Source: Rhizomicrobium palustre | GTDB lineage: Bacteria; Pseudomonadota; Alphaproteobacteria; Micropepsales; Micropepsaceae | Assembly (NCBI RefSeq): GCF_011761565.1 | Contig: NZ_JAASRM010000001.1 | Span: forward strand, 1,922,139 to 1,986,138 | Length of the DNA stretch: 64,000 nt | Direction: 5' to 3' | Notes under the pieces: generated by a model | Database searches by the model: none | What the model saw: the letters and a program-made list of their open reading frames with translations, nothing else | Told to the model about the DNA's origin: nothing | Translations under genes and position numbers: made by a program | In this document: in pieces, positions 4,967-16,756 of the stretch | How positions within the stretch are numbered: the stretch's first letter is position 1 | Layout: each line of letters begins with the position of its first letter

Positions 4967-4980
4967 TTGATTTTCCGCAA
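4967..4980. promoter_or_regulatory. FNR/FixK-type box upstream of the gltD-like/hydA1 unit
   Basis: TTGATTTTCCGCAA fits the FixK2-type consensus TTG(A/C)-N6-(T/G)CAA and is a relaxed FNR box (TTGAT-N4-ATCAA). It lies about 175 bp before the start at 5156. A near-identical box (TTGATCTTTCGCAA) lies upstream of hydC, the only other hydrogenase promoter region here. This suggests anaerobic or microaerobic activation by a CRP/FNR-family regulator. Confidence 0.5.
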
Positions 4981-5155: not shown

Positions 5156-7153
5156 ATGTCACATATCGTCTACGGCGTCTGGAACGGAGCCGTTCACGAC
5201 TACCGCGATCCAACAAAACCGGCGCCGGAAAATCCCGTTGCGTTGAAAAACATCGACGTCTTCAACGAAGGAAACCCCGTGCGCGCTTTCGTCGGCGACC
5301 GGGGTTTTTTCGTGTTCGACAAGGGCGTCAGCCTGATCGATACCTTCTGGCGCTATATGGACAAGGCTGCTGAACAGTCTTGCGGCAAGTGCACCCCCTG
5401 CCGGATGGGCACGGTGCTAGTCCGTGATGCGCTCGCTTCCCTGCGCAAGGGCGAGCTTTCCGCCCTCAACCTTGATGATATCACGGCGCTCGCCCGCCAA
5501 ATGAACGATACCTCGCTTTGCGGTCTCGGCATGACCTGCGGCCGGGCGCTGCTCGATGCCCTGGAAAATTTCCGTGACGAGTTCGAGGCCGAGATCGAAG
5601 AAGGCAAGCAACCCGATCAGGAAGGCATGGTCTATGTCACCGCGCCCTGCATCGAGGCTTGCCCCTCCAAGATCAACGTGCCGCAATACATCGATTACAT
5701 CCGCGACGGTAAGCCGTCCCATTCGCTCGGCGTCATCCTGCAGAAATACCCGATGGCCGCCACCTGCGGCCGCGTCTGCGTGCGCTTCTGCGAAATGGCC
5801 TGCCGCCGTAATCTGGTTGACGAAGCGGTGGGCATCAAAACCCTGAAGCGCTATGTCGCCGACTATCAGAAAGACACCGGCGCGCTCACCTTCTCCAAGA
5901 GCATGATCGCCGAACCGCTGCCGTCCTCCTTCAAGGTCGCGGTTGTGGGGGCCGGCCCGGCGGGCGTATCCGCCGCCTATCACCTTCTGTTGCACGGCTA
6001 TCATGTCGATATCTATGAAGCGATGCCGCAAGCTGGCGGCATGGCCGCGATCGGCATTCCCTCCTACCGCCTGCCGAAGGACATCCTGAAGTCCGAAATG
6101 GACATCATCACCGCGTTAGGTGGCCGCTTCCTCTTCAACCAGAAGCTCGGCAAGGATTATTCGGTCGACGATCTCTTCGCCAAAGGCTACCGCGCCGTGT
6201 TCCTCGGCCTTGGCTGCCAGGAAGGCACCAAGATGGGCGTCGCCAACGAAGACACCTCGCTCAAGGGGTATGAATCCGGCATCGGCTTCCTGCTCAAGGT
6301 GCATGACCATGTGGCGGGCATCAAGCCGGTCAAGCTGGAAGGCGATGTCGTGGTCGTCGGCGGCGGCAACGTCGCGATGGACTGCGTCCGCTCGGCTATC
6401 CGCATGGGCGCGCGCACGGTGCATCTCGTCTATCGCCGCACCCGCGATGACATGCCCGCCGACAAGGAAGAGATCACGGCCGCTGAGGCGGAAGGCATCG
6501 TGATGCATTATCTTACCAACCCGACCGAAATCCTTTCGGAAGACGGTAAGGTGGTGGGCGTGAAGCTGGTGCATATGCGCCAGACCGAGAAGGACGCCAA
6601 GGGCCGCCGTAATGTCGAGCCGATCCCCGGCACCGAACGCGTGCTGGCGTGCTCGACCGTGATCGCCGCCATTGGCCAGCAGGTCCAGTCCGGCGCCATC
6701 CAGGACAAGGATGGGGTCAAGCTCAACAAGTGGAAGTGCATCGACGCCGATCACGCCTCGCTGATGACCTCGCGCGAAGGTGTTTTCGCGGGCGGTGACT
6801 GCGAGACGGGTGCGGCGACGCTTATCAGCGCCATGGCGGCAGGCCTAAAAGCGGCGCGCGCCATCGACGATTGGGTGCGTCTCGGCAAGGTGCGGTTTTT
6901 CCCGCGCTCGCGCATGCGCCAGATCCTGAAAGACAACAACGTGCTCGCCCATGGCGTCGAGGAAATTCCGGTCAAGTCGGAATACCGCGTCCACCATCCC
7001 GAGCTTGATCCTGAAATCCGCAAGCAGATGTTTGAGGAGGTGGAGCGGCCGATCAGCCGCGAAGAGGCCTATCACGAGGCCAAGCGCTGCATGCGCTGCT
7101 ATCGCGTCTATTCGGTGGTCACGGCGCAAGCCGTGCCCGAGTCCCACAATTAA
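5156..7153 (+). CDS. NuoF-type 4Fe-4S domain / GltD-like NAD(P)H oxidoreductase fusion, partner of HydA1
   Basis: This is a 665-residue flavoprotein. Residues about 60-140 resemble the C-terminal 4Fe-4S domain of NuoF/HydB (SCGKCTPCRMG with C76, C79, C82, plus C122 in LCGLG). Residues about 155-640 are GltD/NfnB-like: cysteines in CIEAC and CGRVC..FCEMAC for two 4Fe-4S clusters, an FAD site GAGPAG (265-270), a second Rossmann motif VVVGGGNVAMD, the NADP-type signature VYRRTRDDMPA, and the closing FAGGD FAD motif. The FMN- and NADH-binding part of NuoF is absent. It lies 13 bp before hydA1, so it probably passes electrons between NAD(P)H and that hydrogenase. The start follows a weak CAGGA site and is where NuoF-like residues begin. 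The arrangement resembles the glutamate-synthase-linked group of [FeFe]-hydrogenases. Confidence 0.82.
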   Translation: MSHIVYGVWNGAVHDYRDPTKPAPENPVALKNIDVFNEGNPVRAFVGDRGFFVFDKGVSLIDTFWRYMDKAAEQSCGKCTPCRMGTVLVRDALASLRKGELSALNLDDITALARQMNDTSLCGLGMTCGRALLDALENFRDEFEAEIEEGKQPDQEGMVYVTAPCIEACPSKINVPQYIDYIRDGKPSHSLGVILQKYPMAATCGRVCVRFCEMACRRNLVDEAVGIKTLKRYVADYQKDTGALTFSKSMIAEPLPSSFKVAVVGAGPAGVSAAYHLLLHGYHVDIYEAMPQAGGMAAIGIPSYRLPKDILKSEMDIITALGGRFLFNQKLGKDYSVDDLFAKGYRAVFLGLGCQEGTKMGVANEDTSLKGYESGIGFLLKVHDHVAGIKPVKLEGDVVVVGGGNVAMDCVRSAIRMGARTVHLVYRRTRDDMPADKEEITAAEAEGIVMHYLTNPTEILSEDGKVVGVKLVHMRQTEKDAKGRRNVEPIPGTERVLACSTVIAAIGQQVQSGAIQDKDGVKLNKWKCIDADHASLMTSREGVFAGGDCETGAATLISAMAAGLKAARAIDDWVRLGKVRFFPRSRMRQILKDNNVLAHGVEEIPVKSEYRVHHPELDPEIRKQMFEEVERPISREEAYHEAKRCMRCYRVYSVVTAQAVPESHN

Positions 7154-7166
7154 GGAGCGCCCCACC

Positions 7167-9017
7167 ATGGATAATCATCACAACAACGGCGGCGGCGAAA
7201 AGAAGATCCTGCACGCCACCATCAACGGCATGGCCGTCGAGGCCGAGGAAAACGAAACCATCCTGCATTGCGCCCGCCGCTATGGCGTCTATATCCCGAC
7301 GCTGTGCGAGCTCGACGATATCGATCACACCCCCGGCACCTGCCGCGTCTGTCTGGTCGAGTTCGAAGTCACCAATGGCTCGGGCGTGAAGCTCGCCACC
7401 TCCTGCAATACACCGGTGGTGGAAGGCATGGTGGTGCAGACCCGCTCCCCGCGCGTCCGCAGCGCCCAGCGTTTGCAGGTCGAACTCCTCCTGGCTGACC
7501 ACGATCAGGATTGCGCCACTTGCGTGCGCCACGGCAATTGCGAACTGCAAGACGTGGCCCAGTTCGTAGGCCTGCATGAAAACCGCTTCTTCAAGCCGGA
7601 ATTCGTGGAGAAACGTCCGATCGACGATTCTTCGCCCGCCATGATCCGCGACATGTCCAAATGCATCCGCTGCCAGCGCTGCGTCGCGATTTGCCGCGAA
7701 GGCCAAGGCGTGGATGCGCTGGTGCAGATCGGTATCGGCCAGGAAAAGGCCGTCGGCTTGCGCAATGGTCTGAACCAGAAGGACTCTACGTGCGTCACTT
7801 GCGGCCAATGCGTGCTGGTCTGCCCGACCGGTGCGCTGGGAGAGCGTGACGAAACCGATAAGGTGCTCGATTGGATCTATGATCCCGAGATCGTCACCGT
7901 CTTCCAATTCGCCCCGGCTGTACGCGTGGCCTTTGGCGAGGAGTTCGGTCTTCCGGCGGGTGCCAATGTCCAAGGTCAGATCATCACGGCCCTAAAGCAG
8001 ATCGGCGCCGATATCGTGCTCGATACCAACTTCGCCGCCGATTTGGTGATCATGGAAGAAAGCGCCGAGCTCTTGAAGCGGCTCTCCGCCGGCAAGCGCC
8101 CGACCTTCACCTCCTGCTGCCCGGCTTGGATCAATTTTGCGGAAATCCATTATCCGGAAATCCTGCCCTATCTCTCTTCGACCAAATCGCCGATGCAGTC
8201 GATGGGCGTGATCTGCAAAACCTATCTACCGGAAAAGATGGGCCTGGACCCGAAGAAGGTTCGCACCATCGCTATCATGCCCTGCACCGCGAAGAAGGAC
8301 GAAGCGGCCCGCGGCCAGCTCAAGCTCGAAACCGGCGATGCCGAAATCGATGCCGTGCTGACCACCCGCGAATTCGCCCGCATGCTGCGCCGCGAGGGTG
8401 TCAACATCGCCAAATGCGAACCGTCGGATTTCGACAACCCGTATATGAGCGAGTTCTCCGGCGCGGGTGCCATTTTCGGTACCACCGGCGGCGTGATGGA
8501 AGCAGCCGTCCGCACCATGTACTACGTCGCCAATGGAAAAGAATATGACCTCATCGAATTCGAGCAGCTGCGCGGCTTCGATGGTGTGCGTTCGGCGACC
8601 GTCGATATGGGCGGCTCCATCGGCATCGTGAAAGTGGCGATGGCCCATGGGCTGAAGCCCGCGCGCGAACTGGTCGAGCAGGTACTCGCGGGTAAGGCTG
8701 ATTTCGATTTCATCGAGATCATGGCTTGCCCGGGCGGCTGCGTCGATGGCGGCGGCAACCTTCGCTCCAAGAAGGCCTATATGCCGAACGCCATGAAGCG
8801 CCGCGGCACGCTCTACACGGTCGACCGTCAGCAGAAGGTCCGCCAGTCGCATAACAATGAGCAGATCAAAGCGCTCTATCGCGACTTCCTGGAGAAGCCG
8901 TATTCCGACAAGGCCCATCACCTCCTGCACACCATGTATAACGACCGCAAACTCGACCTGAAGCGGACAGTGAAGGAAATCTGGGACGATCTGACGATCT
9001 CCGATCCTCTGTATTAA
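7167..9017 (+). CDS. hydA: [FeFe]-hydrogenase catalytic subunit HydA1
   Basis: This 616-residue protein has multi-cluster architecture. The order is an N-terminal [2Fe-2S] domain (TLC, GTCRVC, TSC), a His-Cys3 [4Fe-4S] motif (HDQDCATCVRHGNC), two ferredoxin-type clusters (CIRCQRCVAIC and CVTCGQCVLVCP), then the H-cluster domain. All three H-cluster motifs are intact: L1 TSCCPAW (C317 ligand, C318 proton relay), L2 MPCTAKKDE (C373) and L3 MACPGGCVDGGG (C521, C525). It catalyses reversible H2 formation in the cytoplasm and has no signal peptide. AAGGAG precedes the ATG. It shares an operon with the GltD-like fusion, and a terminator follows, separating it from hydCBA2. Confidence 0.96.
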   Translation: MDNHHNNGGGEKKILHATINGMAVEAEENETILHCARRYGVYIPTLCELDDIDHTPGTCRVCLVEFEVTNGSGVKLATSCNTPVVEGMVVQTRSPRVRSAQRLQVELLLADHDQDCATCVRHGNCELQDVAQFVGLHENRFFKPEFVEKRPIDDSSPAMIRDMSKCIRCQRCVAICREGQGVDALVQIGIGQEKAVGLRNGLNQKDSTCVTCGQCVLVCPTGALGERDETDKVLDWIYDPEIVTVFQFAPAVRVAFGEEFGLPAGANVQGQIITALKQIGADIVLDTNFAADLVIMEESAELLKRLSAGKRPTFTSCCPAWINFAEIHYPEILPYLSSTKSPMQSMGVICKTYLPEKMGLDPKKVRTIAIMPCTAKKDEAARGQLKLETGDAEIDAVLTTREFARMLRREGVNIAKCEPSDFDNPYMSEFSGAGAIFGTTGGVMEAAVRTMYYVANGKEYDLIEFEQLRGFDGVRSATVDMGGSIGIVKVAMAHGLKPARELVEQVLAGKADFDFIEIMACPGGCVDGGGNLRSKKAYMPNAMKRRGTLYTVDRQQKVRQSHNNEQIKALYRDFLEKPYSDKAHHLLHTMYNDRKLDLKRTVKEIWDDLTISDPLY

Positions 9018-9084
9018 AAAGCCGGTGGCGCGCCCGGGGGCGAGCCGCTGATAAGAACCAAGCCGTTGATACGGCTGTATCCTT

Positions 9085-9117
9085 GAGGGGGCCGAAAGGT
9101 CCCCTCTTTGTTTTTTG
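9085..9117 (+). terminator. Intrinsic terminator after hydA1
   Basis: The stem GAGGGG/CCCCTC with a GCCGAAAGGT loop is followed by TTTGTTTTTT. It ends the gltD-like/hydA1 unit, so hydC onwards needs its own promoter. Confidence 0.85.
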
Positions 9118-9121
9118 GGTC

Positions 9122-9135
9122 TTGATCTTTCGCAA
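9122..9135. promoter_or_regulatory. FNR/FixK-type box upstream of hydC
   Basis: TTGATCTTTCGCAA matches TTGA-N6-GCAA and differs from the 4967-4980 box only in the spacer. It lies just after the hydA1 terminator and about 137 bp before the hydC start, as expected for an activator site of the second hydrogenase unit. Confidence 0.5.
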
Positions 9136-9271
9136 GGAAAGAAAATTTCACCCCTGATTTTATGGGTTTGACCGGCGCGGGCCGGATCAAGCGGGACGTG
9201 TTCTTTCGAGCGTGTGCCCGGTCTTTTCGTTTGGGCATGCGCCGCCGTCCCTTTTTCGAGGGAGGAGCGGC

Positions 9272-9769
9272 ATGGATGCGCAACAGCAATGGCGGACCGA
9301 GGTCGAACAGCTCGTCCGTGTCCATGGACGCAGCCGCACGGCCTTGATGCCGATCCTGCAGGATATCAACCGCGCCCATAGCTATATCCCGGAAGGCGCG
9401 ATGCTGGCGGTCTCCTCCGCACTGTCTGTGCCACGCACCGAAGTCTATGGCGTCGCCAGCTTCTACGCCTATTTCAGCGTCAAGCCGCGCGGGCGTTATG
9501 TCATCCGCGTCTGCCGTACCATCTCCTGCGCCAAACAGGGCGAGTATCACCCCGCCATCGCCACCCTCATCACCGAGCTTGGTATCGGCTTTGGCGAAAC
9601 CACGCCCGACGGCCTCTTCACGCTCGAGCAAACCAATTGCTGCGGCATGTGCGATCAAGGCCCCTCCATGGTGGTCAATGAAGACGTGCATGTGCGCCTC
9701 AGCGAGGCGAGCGTACGGGCGCTGCTGACTGAGTATCGCCAGCGTGCCGGAGCCGAATTGAAACATTAG
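9272..9769 (+). CDS. hydC: NuoE-like [2Fe-2S] subunit of NADH-linked [FeFe]-hydrogenase (HydC)
   Basis: This 165-residue thioredoxin-fold protein is of the NuoE/HydC family. Four ligand cysteines are visible in VCRTISC and TNCCGMCDQGP, separated by about 40 residues as in the family. The N-terminal helical part (LMPILQDINRAHSYIPEGAM) matches the NuoE helical bundle. It would hold one [2Fe-2S] cluster between the flavin subunit HydB and the rest of the complex. A strong GGGAGGAGCGG ribosome site fixes the start at 9272. It is the first gene of the hydC-hydB-hydA2-hydE cluster; the gap to hydB is 11 bp. Confidence 0.93.
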   Translation: MDAQQQWRTEVEQLVRVHGRSRTALMPILQDINRAHSYIPEGAMLAVSSALSVPRTEVYGVASFYAYFSVKPRGRYVIRVCRTISCAKQGEYHPAIATLITELGIGFGETTPDGLFTLEQTNCCGMCDQGPSMVVNEDVHVRLSEASVRALLTEYRQRAGAELKH

Positions 9770-9780
9770 GGGAGGCCAAA

Positions 9781-10992
9781 ATGCCAGAATCCAAGATGGA
9801 CCCGAAATCGGTACGCGGTTTTGTCGGCAACAAGCTCTCCTTCTCGGATATCTCCGCCAGCGAAGCCTTGAAATCCGCGGCGCAAATGGATGGCGAAGAT
9901 ATCGTCGCCATCGTCAATGCCTCCGGCCTTAAAGGGCGGGGCGGGGCAGGCTTTCCCACCGCCAAGAAATGGGAATATGCCCGCGGCCAGGAAGGCCATC
10001 CCAAATACATCATCGGCAATGCCGATGAGGGTGAGCCCGGCACGTTCAAGGACAGGCTGATCCTGACCGATTTTCCCGAACTCGTCTTCGCAGGCATGGC
10101 GATTGCTGGCCGCGCCGTAGGGGCGGAGTTCGGCATCCTGTACCTGCGCGCCGAATATGGCTGGCTGCGCGCCCATCTCGAAACCGCCATCGAACGCTGC
10201 CGCGACGAAGGCATGCTCGGCAAGGTGATCGGCGGGGCGAAGGATTTCTCCTTCGACATTTCCATCCGCATGGGCTCGGGCGCCTATATCTGTGGCGAGG
10301 AAACCGCGCTGCTGGAATCCCTTGAAGGCCGCCGGGGTGATGCACGCAACCGCATCCCCTTCCCGGTGCAGGCGGGCTATCTCGGCAAGCCCACCGTGGT
10401 GAACAATGTCGAGACCCTGGCCTGGGTGCCCTGCATTCTCCTGAAAGGCCCTTCCTGGTTTGCATCCCGCGGCACCCGAAAGGCGCCCGGCGCTTGGCTC
10501 TTTTCGGTCTCGGGCGATTGCAAGCGGCCCGGTGTTTACGAATATCCCTTCGGTACCTCGCTTCGCCAAATCCTCGCCGATGTCGGCGCGGAGGATGCCA
10601 AGGCGGTGCAGGTGGGCGGGGCGAGCGGAACTTGCGTGCCGCCCGCAGAATTTGACCGCACGCTCACACCCGGCGATCTTGCCACCGGAGGCTCGATTAT
10701 CGTCTTCGGCCCGGGGCAGGACATGTTCGCGGTGGCGGAGAATTTCCAGCATTTCTTCGCCGATGAATCTTGCGGCCAATGCATTCCCTGCCGGGTCGGC
10801 AATCAGCGCCTTCTGGAAGCCATCGCGCGCATGCGCAAAGTAGGGCTCGACCGCGAGGCCGAACGCAATGTGCGTCAGCTCGCCCAAACCATGAGCGTCG
10901 CCTCAAAATGCGGTCTCGGCCAGATGAGCCCGCGTGCCTTTCTTTCCATCCTCAACACTTTCGCGGGCGATCTGCCTGCCAAGCATGCGTGA
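9781..10992 (+). CDS. hydB: NuoF-like FMN/NADH subunit of [FeFe]-hydrogenase (HydB), short form
   Basis: This 403-residue protein has the NuoF core: FMN-binding GRGGAGFPTAKKW, NADH-binding GNADEGEPGTFKDR, the segment GSGAYICGEETALLESLEG, and the 4Fe-4S site ESCGQCIPCRVG plus KCGLGQ near the C-terminus. Thermotoga-type bifurcating HydB is over 600 residues, with an extra N-terminal [2Fe-2S] thioredoxin domain and a C-terminal two-cluster ferredoxin domain. Both are missing here, so the size is that of NuoF itself. It would connect NADH to HydA2 through HydC. Whether the complex bifurcates with ferredoxin cannot be decided from sequence; the missing C-terminal domain favours simple NADH coupling. 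Confidence 0.93.
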   Translation: MPESKMDPKSVRGFVGNKLSFSDISASEALKSAAQMDGEDIVAIVNASGLKGRGGAGFPTAKKWEYARGQEGHPKYIIGNADEGEPGTFKDRLILTDFPELVFAGMAIAGRAVGAEFGILYLRAEYGWLRAHLETAIERCRDEGMLGKVIGGAKDFSFDISIRMGSGAYICGEETALLESLEGRRGDARNRIPFPVQAGYLGKPTVVNNVETLAWVPCILLKGPSWFASRGTRKAPGAWLFSVSGDCKRPGVYEYPFGTSLRQILADVGAEDAKAVQVGGASGTCVPPAEFDRTLTPGDLATGGSIIVFGPGQDMFAVAENFQHFFADESCGQCIPCRVGNQRLLEAIARMRKVGLDREAERNVRQLAQTMSVASKCGLGQMSPRAFLSILNTFAGDLPAKHA

Positions 10993-11003
10993 AGGGGATC
11001 ACC

Positions 11004-12902
11004 ATGGACGTCGAAACCATCACCCTCACCATAGACGGCAAAGACATCTCCGTCGCGCCGGGCACCACAGTCCTGGAAGCAGCCCGCATCGCGGGGATTC
11101 ATATTCCCACCCTCTGCCATCACGACGATCTCTGCTCGGAAGCGCTGTATTCCCAGACCAGCGAGAGCGATCGGCCCAAGCATGAAGAAAGCGGCATGCT
11201 GGCGACGCCGTCCTCCTGCCGCCTCTGTCTGGTGGAGGTGGAGGGGCTTTCCAAGCTCCATGCCTCCTGCGCTTTGCCGGTGCATGGGCCGATGACGGTT
11301 CGCACCACCTCGGCCGCGATCCGCCATGCCCGCCGCGATATTCTCGAATTGATGATGAGCGAGCATTACGGCGATTGCTTCGCCTGCGCCCGCAACGGCA
11401 CCTGCGAATTGCAAAAGCTCTGCGAGGATTACGGCGTCACCAGCGAGCGCTTTGGCCGCCCCCGTGCGCCGCTCTTCGACAAGGCCGCGCCCGGCAACAT
11501 CATCATGCGCGACATGAATAAATGCATCCTCTGCCGTCGCTGCGTGCGCATGTGCGCGCTCTATCAGGGCGTCTATGCGCTGACCACCGAGGGGCGCGGC
11601 GATCACAGCCGCATCTCGACCTTCATGGGCCGAGAAATGAAGGATGCAGCATGCATCAATTGCGGCCAATGCATTAATCGCTGCCCAACCGGGGCGCTGA
11701 CCGAACGCGACGACACCGAAGCGGTGTGGCAGGCGATCGAGGACCCGGACAAGATCGTGGTGATCCAGACCGCGCCTGCGCCCCGCGCCGCGATTGGCGA
11801 GGCTTTTGGCTGCGAGCCCGGCACCGCGCTCACCTATCAGCTCAACACAGCGCTGCGCCGGATCGGCTTCGACAAGGTGTTCGACACCACCTTCTCCGCC
11901 GACCTCACCATCATGGAAGAGGGCGCCGAGCTGCTCTCCCGGCTTTATAAAGGGCTTGTGCTCAAGGATAACGCGGCGCGGCTGCCGCAATTCACCTCCT
12001 GCTCGCCGGGCTGGATCAAATTCATCGAGCATTTCTATCCGGCGTATCTGCCCAACCTCTCCTCGGCCAAAAGCCCGCAGCAGATGATGGGCGCGGTGAT
12101 CAAAACTTATTTCGCCGAAAAGAATGGCTGGGACCCGTCCCGCATCGTCTCGGTCTCGCTGATGCCTTGCACCGCCAAGAAATTCGAAGCGGCGCGGCCC
12201 GAGATGGATTCCAGCGGTTTCCGCGATGTCGATTACGCGCTGACCACCCGCGAGGTGGCGCGAATGCTGAAACAGGCGGGCATTGAACTACCCAAGCTGG
12301 AAGGCTCGCCTTTCGATGATCCCTTCGGCGTGTCGTCCGGTTCCGGGGTAATTTTCGGGGCGACGGGCGGGGTGATGGAGGCCGCGCTCAGAACCGTGGT
12401 CGAACTCGTGACCGGCGAAAAAGTGGAATACCTTTTCGACAAGGCCGACATCAAACCGGTGCGCGGCTTCGATGGGGTGCGGATGGCCGAAATCCCCATC
12501 ACGTCGGTTGGGCCGGTGCCGAAGCTGCTCGCCCATCTAATGCCGGATTTCGACTGGCTGAAAGGCGTCACCCTCCGCGTCGGTTTGGCACATGGCACCA
12601 TCAATGCCATGCGGGTGCTGCAGGATGTCGCTGAGGGCGGGCCGCTTTCGACCTGTCATTTCATCGAATTCATGGCTTGCCCGGGCGGCTGCCTGGGCGG
12701 GGGCGGGCAGCCCATTCCGACCGACCGGGAAATACGTACCGCCCGCGCCAAGGCGCTCTATGGCGAGGATGCGCATGACGTGGTACGCAAGTCTCACGAA
12801 AATGCGGATGTGTTACGCATCTATCGCGAGTTTTTCACGGAAGGGCCGCTAAGCCGCAAGAGCCATGAACTTTTGCACACCCGCTACAAAGAAAGGGTCT
12901 AG
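11004..12902 (+). CDS. hydA: [FeFe]-hydrogenase catalytic subunit HydA2 with Cys-to-Ser change in motif L1
   Basis: This 632-residue second hydrogenase has the same cluster order as HydA1: an N-terminal [2Fe-2S] domain, HYGDCFACARNGTC, CILCRRCVRMC, CINCGQCINRCP, then the H-cluster domain. L2 is MPCTAKKFE (C389) and L3 is MACPGGCLGGGG (C559, C563). L1 reads TSCSPGW, so the H-cluster ligand C333 is kept but the following proton-relay cysteine is Ser334. Other proton-path residues seen in clostridial CpI (MEEGAEL, LSSAKSP) are kept. The [2Fe-2S] domain has a loop of about 30 residues between TLCHHDDLC and PSSCRLC. It follows hydB by 11 bp and so is the catalytic subunit of the NADH-linked trimer. 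The start has AAGGGGAT upstream. Confidence 0.95.
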   Translation: MDVETITLTIDGKDISVAPGTTVLEAARIAGIHIPTLCHHDDLCSEALYSQTSESDRPKHEESGMLATPSSCRLCLVEVEGLSKLHASCALPVHGPMTVRTTSAAIRHARRDILELMMSEHYGDCFACARNGTCELQKLCEDYGVTSERFGRPRAPLFDKAAPGNIIMRDMNKCILCRRCVRMCALYQGVYALTTEGRGDHSRISTFMGREMKDAACINCGQCINRCPTGALTERDDTEAVWQAIEDPDKIVVIQTAPAPRAAIGEAFGCEPGTALTYQLNTALRRIGFDKVFDTTFSADLTIMEEGAELLSRLYKGLVLKDNAARLPQFTSCSPGWIKFIEHFYPAYLPNLSSAKSPQQMMGAVIKTYFAEKNGWDPSRIVSVSLMPCTAKKFEAARPEMDSSGFRDVDYALTTREVARMLKQAGIELPKLEGSPFDDPFGVSSGSGVIFGATGGVMEAALRTVVELVTGEKVEYLFDKADIKPVRGFDGVRMAEIPITSVGPVPKLLAHLMPDFDWLKGVTLRVGLAHGTINAMRVLQDVAEGGPLSTCHFIEFMACPGGCLGGGGQPIPTDREIRTARAKALYGEDAHDVVRKSHENADVLRIYREFFTEGPLSRKSHELLHTRYKERV

Positions 12903-14013
12903 GCCTTCCTCGCCAGAATTCGCTGAACTGGCGGCAAAGCCGGAGCTCACGCGCGCCGATCTGATCAAGCTGCTCTCTGCCAAGGCGGAAGACGAAATCG
13001 AAGCGGTCCGTGCCGAAGCCGAGCGGGTGCTACTGGCCGAATGCGGCAATGGTGTTTACCTGCGCGGGCTGGTCGAAGCCTCCAACGCCTGCGCCTGCGA
13101 TTGCCTTTATTGCGGCATCCGAAAATCCAACCGCGAGGTTAACCGCTACACGCTTTCGCTGGAAGATATCCTCTCCTGCGCCCGCCAATGCGCCGAGATG
13201 GGCTATGGCTCGATGGTGATCCAATCGGGCGAGCGTGCGGACAAGAAATTCATCGATCTCATCGAAGAGGCGGTGCGCCGCATCCGCATCGAAACGGTCA
13301 GCGAGAAACAGCCCGAAGGTCTCGGCATCACGCTCTGCATCGGCCAGCAGACGAAGGAAACCTATCAACGCCTCTATGCGGCCGGAGCGCATCGCTATCT
13401 GCTGCGTATCGAGAGCACCAATCCCAAACTCTTCGCAGCCATCCATCCCGCCGAGCAAAGCTTCGAAAGCCGGGTGGAATGTTTGAAGCTGTTGCGCGAG
13501 GTCGGCTATCAGGTCGGCACCGGCGTGATGATCGGCCTGCCGGGCCAAACCCTCGAAGACCTCGCTGACGATATTCTCTTCTTCTCCACCCTCGATATCG
13601 ACATGATCGGCATGGGTCCGTTCATCCCGCATGCAGGCACGCCTTTGGGCGATTTGCCTTGCCCAGATGTGGCCGAGCGCTTACGGCTGGCTTTCCTGAT
13701 GATTGCCGTGACGCGCCTCAAGCTTCGCGACGTGAACATCGCGGCGACCACCGCACTTCAGGCGCTCGATCCCATCGGGCGCGAAAAGGGCCTTCGTTTC
13801 GGGGCCAATGTGATCATGCCCCAGATGTCGCCCACCGAAGTGCGCGCTGATTACCAGCTTTATCCCGGCAAGCCTTGCATCGACGAGAATGCGAAAGACT
13901 GCCAATCCTGCCTGAATATGCGGGTGGAATTTGCGGGCCGCAAAATCGGGCTTTACGCCTGGGGCGACTCTCTCCATGCCAGGAAGCGTCAAACTGGGGG
14001 CGGGCATGGCTGA
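12865..14013 (+). CDS. hydE: [FeFe]-hydrogenase maturase HydE (radical SAM)
   Basis: This 382-residue radical SAM protein has the SAM-cluster motif CX3CX2C within ACACDCLYCGIR and HydE features: NCxY-type contacts around SNREVNRYTLS, SGE in VIQSGER, and GTGVMIGLPGQT. A second cluster motif CX7CX2C (CIDENAKDCQSC) sits near the C-terminus, as in Thermotoga HydE. HydE acts on the Fe-organometallic product of HydG during assembly of the di-iron subcluster. The start at 12865 overlaps hydA2 by 38 bp and has only a weak ribosome site; no better in-frame start was found. Its 3' end overlaps the aspartase-like gene by 8 bp. Confidence 0.93.
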   Translation: MNFCTPATKKGSRPSSPEFAELAAKPELTRADLIKLLSAKAEDEIEAVRAEAERVLLAECGNGVYLRGLVEASNACACDCLYCGIRKSNREVNRYTLSLEDILSCARQCAEMGYGSMVIQSGERADKKFIDLIEEAVRRIRIETVSEKQPEGLGITLCIGQQTKETYQRLYAAGAHRYLLRIESTNPKLFAAIHPAEQSFESRVECLKLLREVGYQVGTGVMIGLPGQTLEDLADDILFFSTLDIDMIGMGPFIPHAGTPLGDLPCPDVAERLRLAFLMIAVTRLKLRDVNIAATTALQALDPIGREKGLRFGANVIMPQMSPTEVRADYQLYPGKPCIDENAKDCQSCLNMRVEFAGRKIGLYAWGDSLHARKRQTGGGHG

Positions 14014-15388
14014 ACGGCAGGAAAGCGATGGCCTCGGCGAAATTGCGATTGCCGACGGCGCTTTGTGGGGCATCCATACAGAACGGGCGCGGCTGAATTT
14101 TCCCACCACGGGGCGGCGCGTACCTTATGTGCTGATCGCCTCCATGGCGGTGGTCAAACACGCCTGCGCGGTGACCAATGCCGAGCTTGGGCATTTAAAG
14201 CGCGACGCCGCTGACGCGATTATTGCCGCTTGTGCTGAGGTGTGTGAGGGCGGGGCGATGGAGCGCCAGTTTCCGCTCGACGCGTTGCAAGGCGGGGCCG
14301 GCACCTCCACCAATATGAATCTCAATGAGGTGATTGCCAATCTCGCATTGGCGCATCTCGGCAAGGCGCCGGGCGACTATGCGAGCGTGCATCCCTTGCA
14401 CCACGTTAATCTCCATCAATCGACCAACGACGTATATCCCACCGCCTTGCGCATAGCCGCGATTGCGGGCGTGCGGCGGCTCGCCGATTCCTTCGCCAAG
14501 CTGCAAGGCGCCTTCCAGGAAAAGGAAACCGCCTTTCAAGCGATCCCGAAAATGGGCCGCACCGAATTGCAGCCCGCCGTGCCGATGACGCTGGGCCAGG
14601 AGTTTTCCGCTTTTGCCGAAGCCATCGCGCGCGACCGCTGGCGCACCTTTAAATGCGAAGAGAGGCTCAGGCTCGTCAATCTTGGCGGCACCGCGATTGG
14701 CACTGGGCTGACCGCGCCGCGCGCTTTCATCTTCCGTGTCATCGAAGTCTTGCGCGCGCTGACCGGCATGGGTCTGGCACGCAGCGAAAATGTTATCGAC
14801 GGCACGGCCAATGCAGATGCCTTTGTCGAGGTTTCGGGAATCCTCAAAGCCTCCGCCGCCAATCTCTCCAAGATCGCGGCCGATCTGCGTCTGTTGCATT
14901 TCCTGGGCGAAATCGCGCTGCCACCCTTGCAGGCGGGGTCCTCCATCATGCCGGGCAAGATCAATCCGGTGATGACGGAGTCGGTGATGCAGATCGCCAT
15001 GGCAGTCAGGGCCAATGATGCGGTGATCGCCGAATGCGCCGCCCATGGCACGCTGCAGATCAATGAGTATATGCCGCTTCTGGCCTTCACGCTTCTGGAA
15101 AGCCTGGAGATGCTGAACTCCGCCGCGCGTGCTTTCACCAAACATGTTGCCGCTATCGAAGCGGATGCTGCGCGCTGCGCCGCGTATCTTTCCGACAGTC
15201 CGACGCTCGTCACCGCCTTTCTGCCCAAGATCGGTTATGAGCGCGCCGAGGTACTGGCGAAAGAATACGCCGTTGCCAAAGCCGGTAAGCCCGAACTTTC
15301 TTTGCGGGAGTTTCTGGTCTCGCGCCTCGGTCACGGCATCGTGGACGAAGTTCTCTCCGCACCCAACCTCATCAAACTTGGTCACTAG
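14006..15388 (+). CDS. Aspartate ammonia-lyase-like protein (fumarase/aspartase superfamily) in hydrogenase maturation cluster
   Basis: This 460-residue protein belongs to the fumarase/aspartase superfamily. The signature loop GSSIMPGKINPVMTE, the active-site segment GGAGTSTNMNLNEV and the HQSTNDVYPTAL motif are all present and match aspartase or class II fumarase. The start is ATG 14006, overlapping hydE by 8 bp; an upstream in-frame start at 13931 lies inside hydE and is unlikely. Aspartase genes recur between hydE and hydF in other hydrogenase clusters. A plausible role is local supply of ammonium for the dithiomethylamine bridge of the H-cluster, which is inference. Aspartase and fumarase activity cannot be told apart by eye; the context favours aspartase. 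Confidence 0.85.
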   Translation: MAERQESDGLGEIAIADGALWGIHTERARLNFPTTGRRVPYVLIASMAVVKHACAVTNAELGHLKRDAADAIIAACAEVCEGGAMERQFPLDALQGGAGTSTNMNLNEVIANLALAHLGKAPGDYASVHPLHHVNLHQSTNDVYPTALRIAAIAGVRRLADSFAKLQGAFQEKETAFQAIPKMGRTELQPAVPMTLGQEFSAFAEAIARDRWRTFKCEERLRLVNLGGTAIGTGLTAPRAFIFRVIEVLRALTGMGLARSENVIDGTANADAFVEVSGILKASAANLSKIAADLRLLHFLGEIALPPLQAGSSIMPGKINPVMTESVMQIAMAVRANDAVIAECAAHGTLQINEYMPLLAFTLLESLEMLNSAARAFTKHVAAIEADAARCAAYLSDSPTLVTAFLPKIGYERAEVLAKEYAVAKAGKPELSLREFLVSRLGHGIVDEVLSAPNLIKLGH

Positions 15389-15420
15389 CTTCATGCGGAA
15401 GAGGGTCGGATAATTTTACG

Positions 15421-15447
15421 TCATGGCCGGGCTCGACCCGGCCATCC
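15421..15447. repeat. Small palindromic repeat before hydF
   Basis: A perfect stem ATGGCCGGG-CTCGA-CCCGGCCAT (15423-15445) is flanked by TC and CC. It is of the TCATGGCCGGGCTCGACC type that is widespread between genes in Alphaproteobacteria. A related but imperfect copy lies at 21248-21277. It has no U-run, so it is a repeat or weak hairpin rather than a clear terminator between the aspartase-like gene and hydF. Confidence 0.7.
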
Positions 15448-15508
15448 AGTCTTTTGCGTGGCCATGACGGTGATACAAAAACAAAAAGACAAATCGGGAT
15501 TTGGAAAC

Positions 15509-16756
15509 ATGGATCTGCCGGTTACTCCTAAAGCCAGCCGCCTTCATATCGGCATCGCCGGGCGGGTGAATGTCGGCAAATCCTCTTTCCTCAATATGTT
15601 GGCGGGCCAAGACCTCGCTATCACCTCCGCTCTGCCGGGCACCACTACCGATGTGGTTGAAAAGACCATGGAGCTGTTGCCGCTCGGCCCTGTAACCCTG
15701 ATCGATACGGCAGGTATCGATGATGCGTCCGAGCTTGGCAGCCAGCGCATCGCCATGACCCAAAAGGCGCTGCGCCGTGCCGACATATTGGCGCTGGTGG
15801 TCACGCCGGACGCCTGGAGCGCTTACGAGGATAATCTCATCAACGAGGCGCGCGCCGCCAAGGTGCCGGTCCTGATCGTGATCAATAAGACCGACCTTGC
15901 CGAGCCTTCGGCGGATTTTCTCTCGCTGATCGACGTCAAGCGGCTGGCCTGGATTTCCGGCAGCGCCACGGGCGGAGCTGCGGAAAGCTTCCGTCAAGCC
16001 TTCAAGGATGCGGTGCGCGGTCTTTTGCCCACATTATATACAGCACCACCGAGCCTTCTGGGCGATCTCTTGCCGCCGGGCGGTCTCGCGGTACTGGTGG
16101 TGCCGATTGATCTGGGCGCACCCGCAGGGCGATTAATCGTGCCCCAGGTCCAAGCTTTGCGCGATCTGCTCGATAGCGATGCCAGCGCTCTGGTGGTGAA
16201 GGATCGCGAATACGCCGCGACCCTTTCGCGTCTCAAAACGCCGCCTGATCTCGTCGTTTGCGATTCCCAGGTGGTAGCGCGTGTCGTTGCCGATACGCCG
16301 CAGGGTATTCCGCTCACGACCTTCTCGATCCTCTTTGCCCGTTTTAAAGGCGATCTCAATGCGCTGGCCCGCGGGGCAGGCGTTTTGAACCGGCTGAAGC
16401 CCGGCGATCGCATCCTGATTGCGGAAGGCTGCTCCCACCATCCCCTGGAAGACGATATCGGCCGGGTGAAAATTCCGCGCTGGCTCCGGCAATTTTCAGG
16501 CTGCGAACTCGATATATCCACCTGCGCCGGCCATGATTTCCCGGCCGATCTCAAGGATTATCGGCTTATTATACACTGTGGCGGATGTGTGATGACGCGC
16601 CATGAGGTCTTGGCGCGCATGGGTGAAGCCGAGACGGTTCAGACAGAAATGACCAATTACGGGCTCGCCATTTCGGTGCTTCAAGGGGTGCTGGAAAGGG
16701 CACTATCGCCATTTCCAGGCGCTTTAGCAGCCTATAAGGGGCATTTTGGTACGTAA
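15509..16756 (+). CDS. hydF: [FeFe]-hydrogenase maturation GTPase HydF
   Basis: HydF is the scaffold GTPase that assembles the di-iron subcluster and delivers it to HydA. The N-terminal GTPase domain shows the P-loop GRVNVGKSS, switch motif PGTTTD, DTAG and NKTD. The C-terminal domain carries the cluster ligands CSH (in EGCSHHPLED) and HCGGC, the family's CxH...HCxxC signature. I chose ATG 15509, which gives MDLPVTPKASRLHIGI and matches the usual short HydF N-terminus (415 residues); GTG 15458 and ATG 15464 are in-frame alternatives close to the palindromic repeat. It lies 120 bp after the aspartase-like gene in the same direction. Confidence 0.93.
   Translation: MDLPVTPKASRLHIGIAGRVNVGKSSFLNMLAGQDLAITSALPGTTTDVVEKTMELLPLGPVTLIDTAGIDDASELGSQRIAMTQKALRRADILALVVTPDAWSAYEDNLINEARAAKVPVLIVINKTDLAEPSADFLSLIDVKRLAWISGSATGGAAESFRQAFKDAVRGLLPTLYTAPPSLLGDLLPPGGLAVLVVPIDLGAPAGRLIVPQVQALRDLLDSDASALVVKDREYAATLSRLKTPPDLVVCDSQVVARVVADTPQGIPLTTFSILFARFKGDLNALARGAGVLNRLKPGDRILIAEGCSHHPLEDDIGRVKIPRWLRQFSGCELDISTCAGHDFPADLKDYRLIIHCGGCVMTRHEVLARMGEAETVQTEMTNYGLAISVLQGVLERALSPFPGALAAYKGHFGT

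Follow-up and report, generated by a model that had tools for sequence, protein, structure and literature searches.

Two group A [FeFe] hydrogenases and an exchanged HydG maturase in the alphaproteobacterium Rhizomicrobium palustre

Introduction

How does an alphaproteobacterium come to carry two [FeFe] hydrogenases side by side, and which electrons would they turn into hydrogen? The question is raised by a stretch of 64,000 nucleotides from Rhizomicrobium palustre (positions 1,922,139–1,986,138 of a single-contig genome of 4.26 Mb), called the window below. Positions 5156–16756 of the window hold an island of eight genes, all on the forward strand: a gltD fusion (gltDf), hydA1, hydC, hydB, hydA2, hydE, an aspA-like gene and hydF. 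The enzyme families are known and the host is an uncommon one; what is new is the architecture of one hydrogenase partner and the exchange of a maturase. The explanation that we consider likely is that, under anoxia, two soluble [FeFe] hydrogenases of group A let fermentation electrons leave the cell as H2. NADH would pass a hydride to flavin mononucleotide (FMN) in HydB, and the electrons would reach the H-cluster of HydA2 through a chain of Fe-S clusters without ferredoxin. HydA1 and the GltD fusion would form a second hydrogenase that draws on a different carrier, which is most likely NADPH. Maturation of both HydAs would fall to HydE, HydF and an unlinked HydG, with ammonia for the bridging ligand coming from the aspartase-like enzyme. 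In the branch of the window, hydG would have been replaced by a copy that is closest in identity to the HydG of Bacillota and lies elsewhere in the chromosome. Published work is cited by PubMed Central accession.

Gene Content of the Island

A first-pass annotation, made from the letters of the window, had named these eight genes, and family scans bear out their order and place. PF02906 matches two proteins genome-wide, HydA1 (7167–9017, the large subunit) and HydA2 (11004–12902, start ATG at 11004), with 296.7 and 282 bits, and both exceed the TIGR02512 cut-off of 406 (499 and 483 bits). The Pfam scan adds the accessory domains PF02256, PF13510, PF10588 and Fer4. With an H-domain bearing the L1–L3 motifs and accessory Fe-S domains, both proteins belong to group A. 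The top-scoring model for both is the NCBI 'NADH-dependent [FeFe] hydrogenase, group A6', at 715 and 763 bits, below its cut-off of 765. Between the two lie hydC (9272–9769, start ATG at 9272), encoding a NuoE-like [2Fe-2S] subunit (PF01257, 3e-43), and hydB (9781–10992), encoding a short NuoF-like FMN/NADH subunit of 403 aa. After hydA2 come hydE (12865–14013), a radical SAM maturase gene (TIGR03956, 344 bits against a cut-off of 255), the aspA-like lyase gene (14006–15388; NF008909, 530 against 510 bits, and below the stricter TIGR00839 aspA cut-off with 435 against 681 bits) and hydF (15458–16756, start codon uncertain), whose product, a maturation GTPase and scaffold, has both C-terminal HydF domains (TIGR03918, 498 against 326 bits).

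The island is at home in its surroundings. GC content is level across it, and GC at third codon positions is 0.66–0.79 in its genes against 0.72 ± 0.07 in 21 other open reading frames (ORFs), the longest non-overlapping frames of the window. The codon-use distance of single island genes to these pooled ORFs is 0.66–1.16, and that of the ORFs themselves 1.01 ± 0.29. Seven island genes (hydE left out) have dN/dS values of 0.067–0.157 against three relatives and are under purifying selection. The same eight-gene order between dnaE2 and mfp/RND genes recurs in four other genomes (loci L053, L055, L056 and L057). Because the genome is one contig and order and flanks are identical in these four, misassembly is very unlikely. 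The residence of the island looks long, from native codon use, dN/dS of 0.07–0.16 and shared synteny; the first-pass annotation had argued the same from composition, and its comparison holds for GC, third positions and codon use.

HydA2BC, a Probable Non-bifurcating NADH Hydrogenase

Residues that separate bifurcating from non-bifurcating beta subunits are given in PMC7311640. Bifurcating HydB subunits follow the pattern A/E, M, F and GGPSG with extra Fe-S domains, and non-bifurcating ones have T/S, K/S/A and Y and no GGPSG. The island HydB has T and K where the Thermotoga maritima protein has A232 and M234, reads GAYICGEE with Y where the T. maritima chain and that of PDB entry 7q4v have F, and carries GGASG in place of GGPSG. 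It departs from the bifurcating (A3) pattern and fits the non-bifurcating one at every diagnostic site checked. No extra Fe-S domain and no CxxCxxCxxxC motif was found in its 403 residues, and two such motifs occur in 30 of 32 rows with the bifurcating pattern. Those rows come from a survey of 108 HydB/NuoF-like rows (the window and 107 others, with some genomes appearing twice), which sorts into 52 rows of non-bifurcating pattern, 32 of bifurcating and 24 of mixed pattern; 21 of the mixed rows were NuoF-like, mostly mixed because the search pattern missed their first site. The HydBs of all ten island genomes of the genus have the non-bifurcating pattern, as do those of loci L068 and L069–L073. 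Because HydB carries the published non-bifurcating residues, HydA2BC is most likely NADH-dependent and ferredoxin-independent, without bifurcation; if independent of ferredoxin, it would make H2 only at low H2 pressure. Loci L069–L073 hold the nearest named relatives of HydA2, from several phyla, and a bifurcating (A3) label given to them by default would likely be wrong.

HydA2 reads TSCSP in all ten genus copies. In an alignment with the CpI chain, serine stands at the second residue of the CpI CC pair (C300, counted on the printed numbering), which we take to be a ligand of the cubane cluster. The 'complete H-cluster ligands' of the first-pass annotation are therefore found in HydA1 (TSCCP, MPCTAK, ACPGGC), and HydA2 lacks one of the four cubane cysteines. 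The neighbouring Cys299 has been described as part of the proton pathway (PMC11376134), work on CrHydA1 suggests that the cysteine at the C300 position is essential for cluster integration (PMC11966682), and TSCSPGW has been reported in Melainabacteria (PMC3787301). The best solved match to HydA2, the HydA of 7q4v (556 bits), likewise reads TSCSP. We take that entry to be the HydABC of Acetobacterium woodii, a bifurcating enzyme. Outside the genus, 86 of the 93 distinct HydA ORFs in named loci (within L069–L147) have the serine as well. This share is biased, since the loci are the 80 best of 596 confirmed relatives given by a capped scan and ordered by their similarity to HydA2. By neighbour, the counts are 24/29 beside a HydB of bifurcating pattern, 39/39 beside one of non-bifurcating pattern and 23/25 in other settings. 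Serine at this position does not exclude the multimeric HydABC type and, within a sample chosen by similarity, may be the norm in HydABC enzymes. The serine was considered as a sign of decay, a view rejected because every one of the ten genus copies has it and HydAs of the HydABC type commonly do. A variable insert of HydA2 lies at 11133–11210, between the first and second cysteine of the N-terminal [2Fe-2S] domain, and is longer in clade A than in clade B of the genus (defined below by HydG).

HydA1 and its Proposed GltD-fusion Partner

The first gene of the island, gltDf (5156–7153), encodes the proposed partner of HydA1. Its Pfam domains are, in order, NADH_4Fe-4S (the last domain of NuoF and HydB), Fer4_20 and Pyr_redox_2, the last forming a GltD/NfnB-like module for flavin adenine dinucleotide (FAD) and NAD(P)H; the FMN domain, Complex1_51K, is missing. 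Among PDB entries it is closest to GltD-like chains, those of Stn and Nfn and their kin, and residues 36–155 match the end of HydB-like chains. The fusion thus holds the tail of a NuoF-type subunit without its FMN part. That part is present in 14 of 14 HydA-linked homologues from named loci outside the genus with a visible N-terminus (frames of 998–1144 aa; Pfam was run on two of the 14). Five further homologues are cut by contig ends, with the FMN part still visible in two (L108, L130). Distant GltD-like proteins without a NuoF part (L188–L193 and L197–L199, 28–33% identity) were left out of this count. Within the genus, the FMN part is absent from all six full-length fusions (the window and L053–L057), and the copies in L061 and L011 are cut.

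No full-length match to HydA1 above 42% identity was found outside the window's own genome among 398 genomes of the phylum. The best plasmid match (45.7%, Peptoclostridium) has NuoE- and NuoF-like neighbours, and a search of viral contigs with one protein gave no relative. HydA homologues of about 700 aa with TSCCP, MPCTAK and a C-terminal extension were seen at L014/L062 (G010), L015/L063 (G009), L040/L066 (G276) and L150 (G485).

The pair recalls HydDB group A2, for which the protein downstream of HydA has a GltD domain and not NuoF (PMC5037454). Here the GltD protein lies upstream of hydA1 and hydC lies downstream. HydA1-GltDf is not formally A2, because of that upstream position, and may work like A2. 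In the Sporomusa ovata transhydrogenase Stn, a GltD-like NADPH module feeds a HydBC-like core (PMC10482914). Stn serves as the analogy for HydA1-GltDf, which probably takes its electrons from NADPH, by way of the FAD in the GltD module and then the [4Fe-4S] domain of NuoF type. A bolder proposal, which we put forward tentatively and would not be surprised to see fail, is that HydA1 and the FMN-less fusion form an unrecognised subtype coupling NADPH (possibly with ferredoxin, via FAD and Fe-S clusters) directly to H2; together with the ferredoxin-independent NADH hydrogenase of the operon, it would give the NADH and NADPH pools separate H2 vents, served by a replacement HydG.

Maturation and the Exchange of hydG

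No hydG lies within the island. The gene was found alone at genome positions 3,005,722–3,007,110, 1.07 Mb away and beside unrelated-looking ORFs, and HydE, HydF and HydG all score above their family cut-offs, so that the genome holds a complete HydEFG set. A broken pathway had been considered and was rejected on this finding. The first-pass description of two complete HydAs with maturases passes over three things: the serine ligand of HydA2, a hydG that is both missing from the island and exchanged, and a HydB of the non-bifurcating type.

Within the order, hydG is above cut-off in 10 of 96 genomes, exactly the ten genus genomes with island HydAs, and in none of the 27 genomes outside the genus. 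In another genus, G009 and G010 each carry a HydA of a different kind, and neither gives a hydG match. The genus copies fall into two sets. Clade A comprises the window's HydG and seven others at 73–90% identity to it, in all seven on another contig than the island. Clade B (G023, G062 and the named metagenome-assembled locus L068) has 47–50% identity to the window's HydG, and its operon reads hydG-hydC-hydB-hydA2-hydE-aspA-hydF; hydG there stands at the head, the place taken by gltDf-hydA1 in the island. The other genes shared by the clade A and clade B operons are 64–81% identical to those of the window. In a HydG tree of 28 rows, clade A falls in a 100/100 group with two Bacillota rows (58–60% identity) and seven other alphaproteobacterial rows, and clade B joins one alphaproteobacterial row (98/97). 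An approximately unbiased (AU) test rejects the two clades as one (p 4.1e-5). The hydG of the window is not orthologous to the hydG that heads the operons of sister genomes. A maturase has been exchanged within the genus. Hyd operons that are otherwise alike rely, in one genus, on two hydG genes that are not orthologous to each other (L003, L052, L174–L182, L068).

The nitrogen of the bridging ligand can come from aspartate through AspA, and aspA often lies close to hydF (PMC11736057). A role of the aspartase-like enzyme in supplying ammonia for the dithiomethylamine bridge of the H-cluster would fit this precedent.

Distribution and Origin

[FeFe] hydrogenases were found to be uncommon in Alphaproteobacteria, as the first-pass annotation held: PF02906 is present in 24 of 385 sampled class genomes, own included, and hydG is above cut-off in 12 of 381. 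The search for the island in related genomes that it had proposed found it in 10 of 69 genus genomes, each with hydG; hydA1 is present in eight of those ten. In G019, one of the island genomes, PF02906 also gives a third hit that scores far lower (L023, on G019:C40; 89.5 bits). In the large HydA tree, where relatives stand in for the HydA rows of the window (a second tree includes them), HydA2 falls among rows of Propionigenium, Myxococcales, Auribacter, Omnitrophota and Kapaibacterium. The group holds a single further row from Alphaproteobacteria, G183, at about 50% identity and on a long branch, and the remaining sampled HydAs of the class fall elsewhere. The pattern of many alphaproteobacterial HydAs on deep, vertical branches, which would have removed the novelty of the island, is not seen.

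In rpoB, 22 of 30 genomes were matched and 19 rows used, with partial loci dropped and one bad row (G064, 63% over 953 residues) disregarded. Four genomes of clade A come together (100/100), and G062 and the island-free G060 join them in a larger clade (100/99), a tree compatible with one gain and one loss or draft gap. The HydA2 operon looks like a single entry into one subclade of the genus, where it probably arrived from another lineage of anaerobes. The first-pass annotation had offered an old acquisition or a fermentative lineage; both fit, and since the operon looks like one entry into a subclade, the two are not exclusive.

Physiology and Possible Regulation

The genome encodes a pyruvate:ferredoxin oxidoreductase (PFOR) of 1177 aa (1694 bits against a cut-off of 911), and no NiFe-hydrogenase match (PF00374) was found in it. 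Together these fit fermentative H2 production. A second POR-like protein of 1697 aa scores 431 bits against the same cut-off, and the view that both are PFORs was rejected. Its gene (minus strand, G000:C1:1986122–1991215; L193 2123–7216) reaches the right end of the window with its 3' end, and its product has a Cys-rich C-terminal stretch. PF01558 is also carried by open frames of 1655–1711 aa from further island genomes and from the island-free G063.

Two possible FNR/FixK-like sites lie in conserved blocks ahead of island genes: TTGATTTTCCGCAA at 4967–4980, ahead of gltDf, with TTGA and GCAA kept in four of five aligned genomes, and TTGATCTTTCGCAA at 9122–9135, ahead of hydC, with TTGATCTTT and CAA invariant in the five. 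The sites are judged by the usual FNR/FixK consensus, and a regulatory function is putative. A looser pattern, TTGM-N6-KCAA, chosen after the sites were seen, matches five times in the window, where 5.55 matches are expected; two of the five fall in the two promoter regions of the island. The candidate sites suggest anoxic expression.

Weighing the Explanations

Other explanations share parts of this evidence. HydA2BC could belong to HydDB group A3, the electron-bifurcating hydrogenases, and draw on NADH and reduced ferredoxin at once: its best solved relative is presumably such an enzyme, and the genome PFOR would make reduced ferredoxin. A HydB of 403 aa without extra Fe-S domains, different at every diagnostic site checked, makes this improbable. 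The hydrogenases could instead mainly take up H2, making NADH or NADPH for biosynthesis or respiration. Enzymes of this kind can run in both directions, the genome gives no match to a NiFe uptake hydrogenase, and according to HydDB group A2 may couple H2 oxidation to NAD reduction (PMC5037454). The PFOR, the lack of other hydrogenases and the candidate FNR/FixK-like sites fit fermentation and anoxia, although uptake is compatible with them, and a mainly uptake role seems rather unlikely. That HydA1 and its trimmed partner are decaying, or sense H2 in a regulatory role instead of acting as a catalytic enzyme, might be argued from the absence of the FMN part that the 14 homologues outside the genus keep. 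It is a very unlikely reading of a protein with intact motifs and dN/dS of 0.08–0.12, beside a fusion at 0.11–0.12 and with no sensor domain in the Pfam scan; HydA2 has similar values (0.07–0.12). As to origin, old vertical inheritance with massive loss in Alphaproteobacteria could draw on the 24 class genomes with PF02906 and on G183 in the group of HydA2. The other HydAs of the class lie elsewhere in the tree, the HydA2 group is otherwise made of other phyla, and hydG is confined within the order to the ten genus genomes (10/69, against 0/27 in the rest), all of which renders such a history improbable as well.

The preferred explanation, H2 disposal by two soluble hydrogenases under anoxia, has its own difficulties. 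The NADP(H) preference of the GltD module is deduced from its fold only. The nearest kin of HydA1 outside the genus were not found, and its tree placement is weak (78/94), on a long branch. At the F/Y site, PMC7311640 prints position 367 and the aligned F is counted at 312, so that the site was matched by its GAF/GAY motif. The G183 row and the weaker second POR protein weigh on the explanation too, and PFOR is no marker of island carriers, because PF01558 occurs in 77 of 96 order genomes. A strict TTGAT-N4-ATCAA search with one mismatch allowed gave four hits in the window, none at either island promoter. For the history of the island, rpoB was usable for only five of the ten island genomes. 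The HydE tree (like the HydF tree, which lacks the window row, a quick tree) joins G019 with L068 (SH-aLRT 95), and imuB-dnaE2 is not beside the island in G019 and clade B, so that the history inside the genus is not simple. No clean empty site was found beside dnaE2; nine island-free genomes have imuB-dnaE2 and neither hyd nor mfp/RND genes in the stretch read. Long branches were flagged in the HydG tree, and its well-supported group of clade A and Bacillota rows also takes in seven HydGs from other alphaproteobacteria.

Comparison with Known Systems

If the HydABC enzyme is non-bifurcating, H2 could be produced only at low H2 pressure, and the organism would depend on nearby H2 consumers. 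The maturase exchange hints that HydG may be replaced while HydE and HydF stay in place, a point of interest for the specificity of the handover from HydG to HydE. The FMN-less GltD hydrogenase offers a simple case for the undetermined "glutamate synthase-linked" group.

Among known systems, Hyd1ABC resembles HydA2BC in its subunit set, the residue pattern of HydB and the predicted independence of ferredoxin; here the host is an alphaproteobacterium, and a second hydrogenase with a GltD fusion shares the operon. The HydABC of 7q4v, presumably from A. woodii, shares TSCSP and is the best solved match to HydA2, whereas its HydB has 599 aa and the bifurcating pattern. HydDB group A2, the glutamate synthase-linked group, likewise has a HydA adjoining a GltD-like protein (PMC5037454); in the island, that protein lies upstream rather than downstream, and it is joined to the final domain of NuoF with no FMN part. 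The Stn transhydrogenase (PDB 8oh5; PMC10482914) shares the GltD-like NADPH module and a NuoF/NuoG-like Fe-S chain but has no hydrogenase and keeps the FMN bifurcating module, whereas here the module adjoins HydA1 without FMN. In the aspA-linked hyd maturation operons (PMC11736057), an aspA-like gene likewise lies beside hydF; in the R. palustre island, by contrast, hydG is absent from the operon and has been exchanged.

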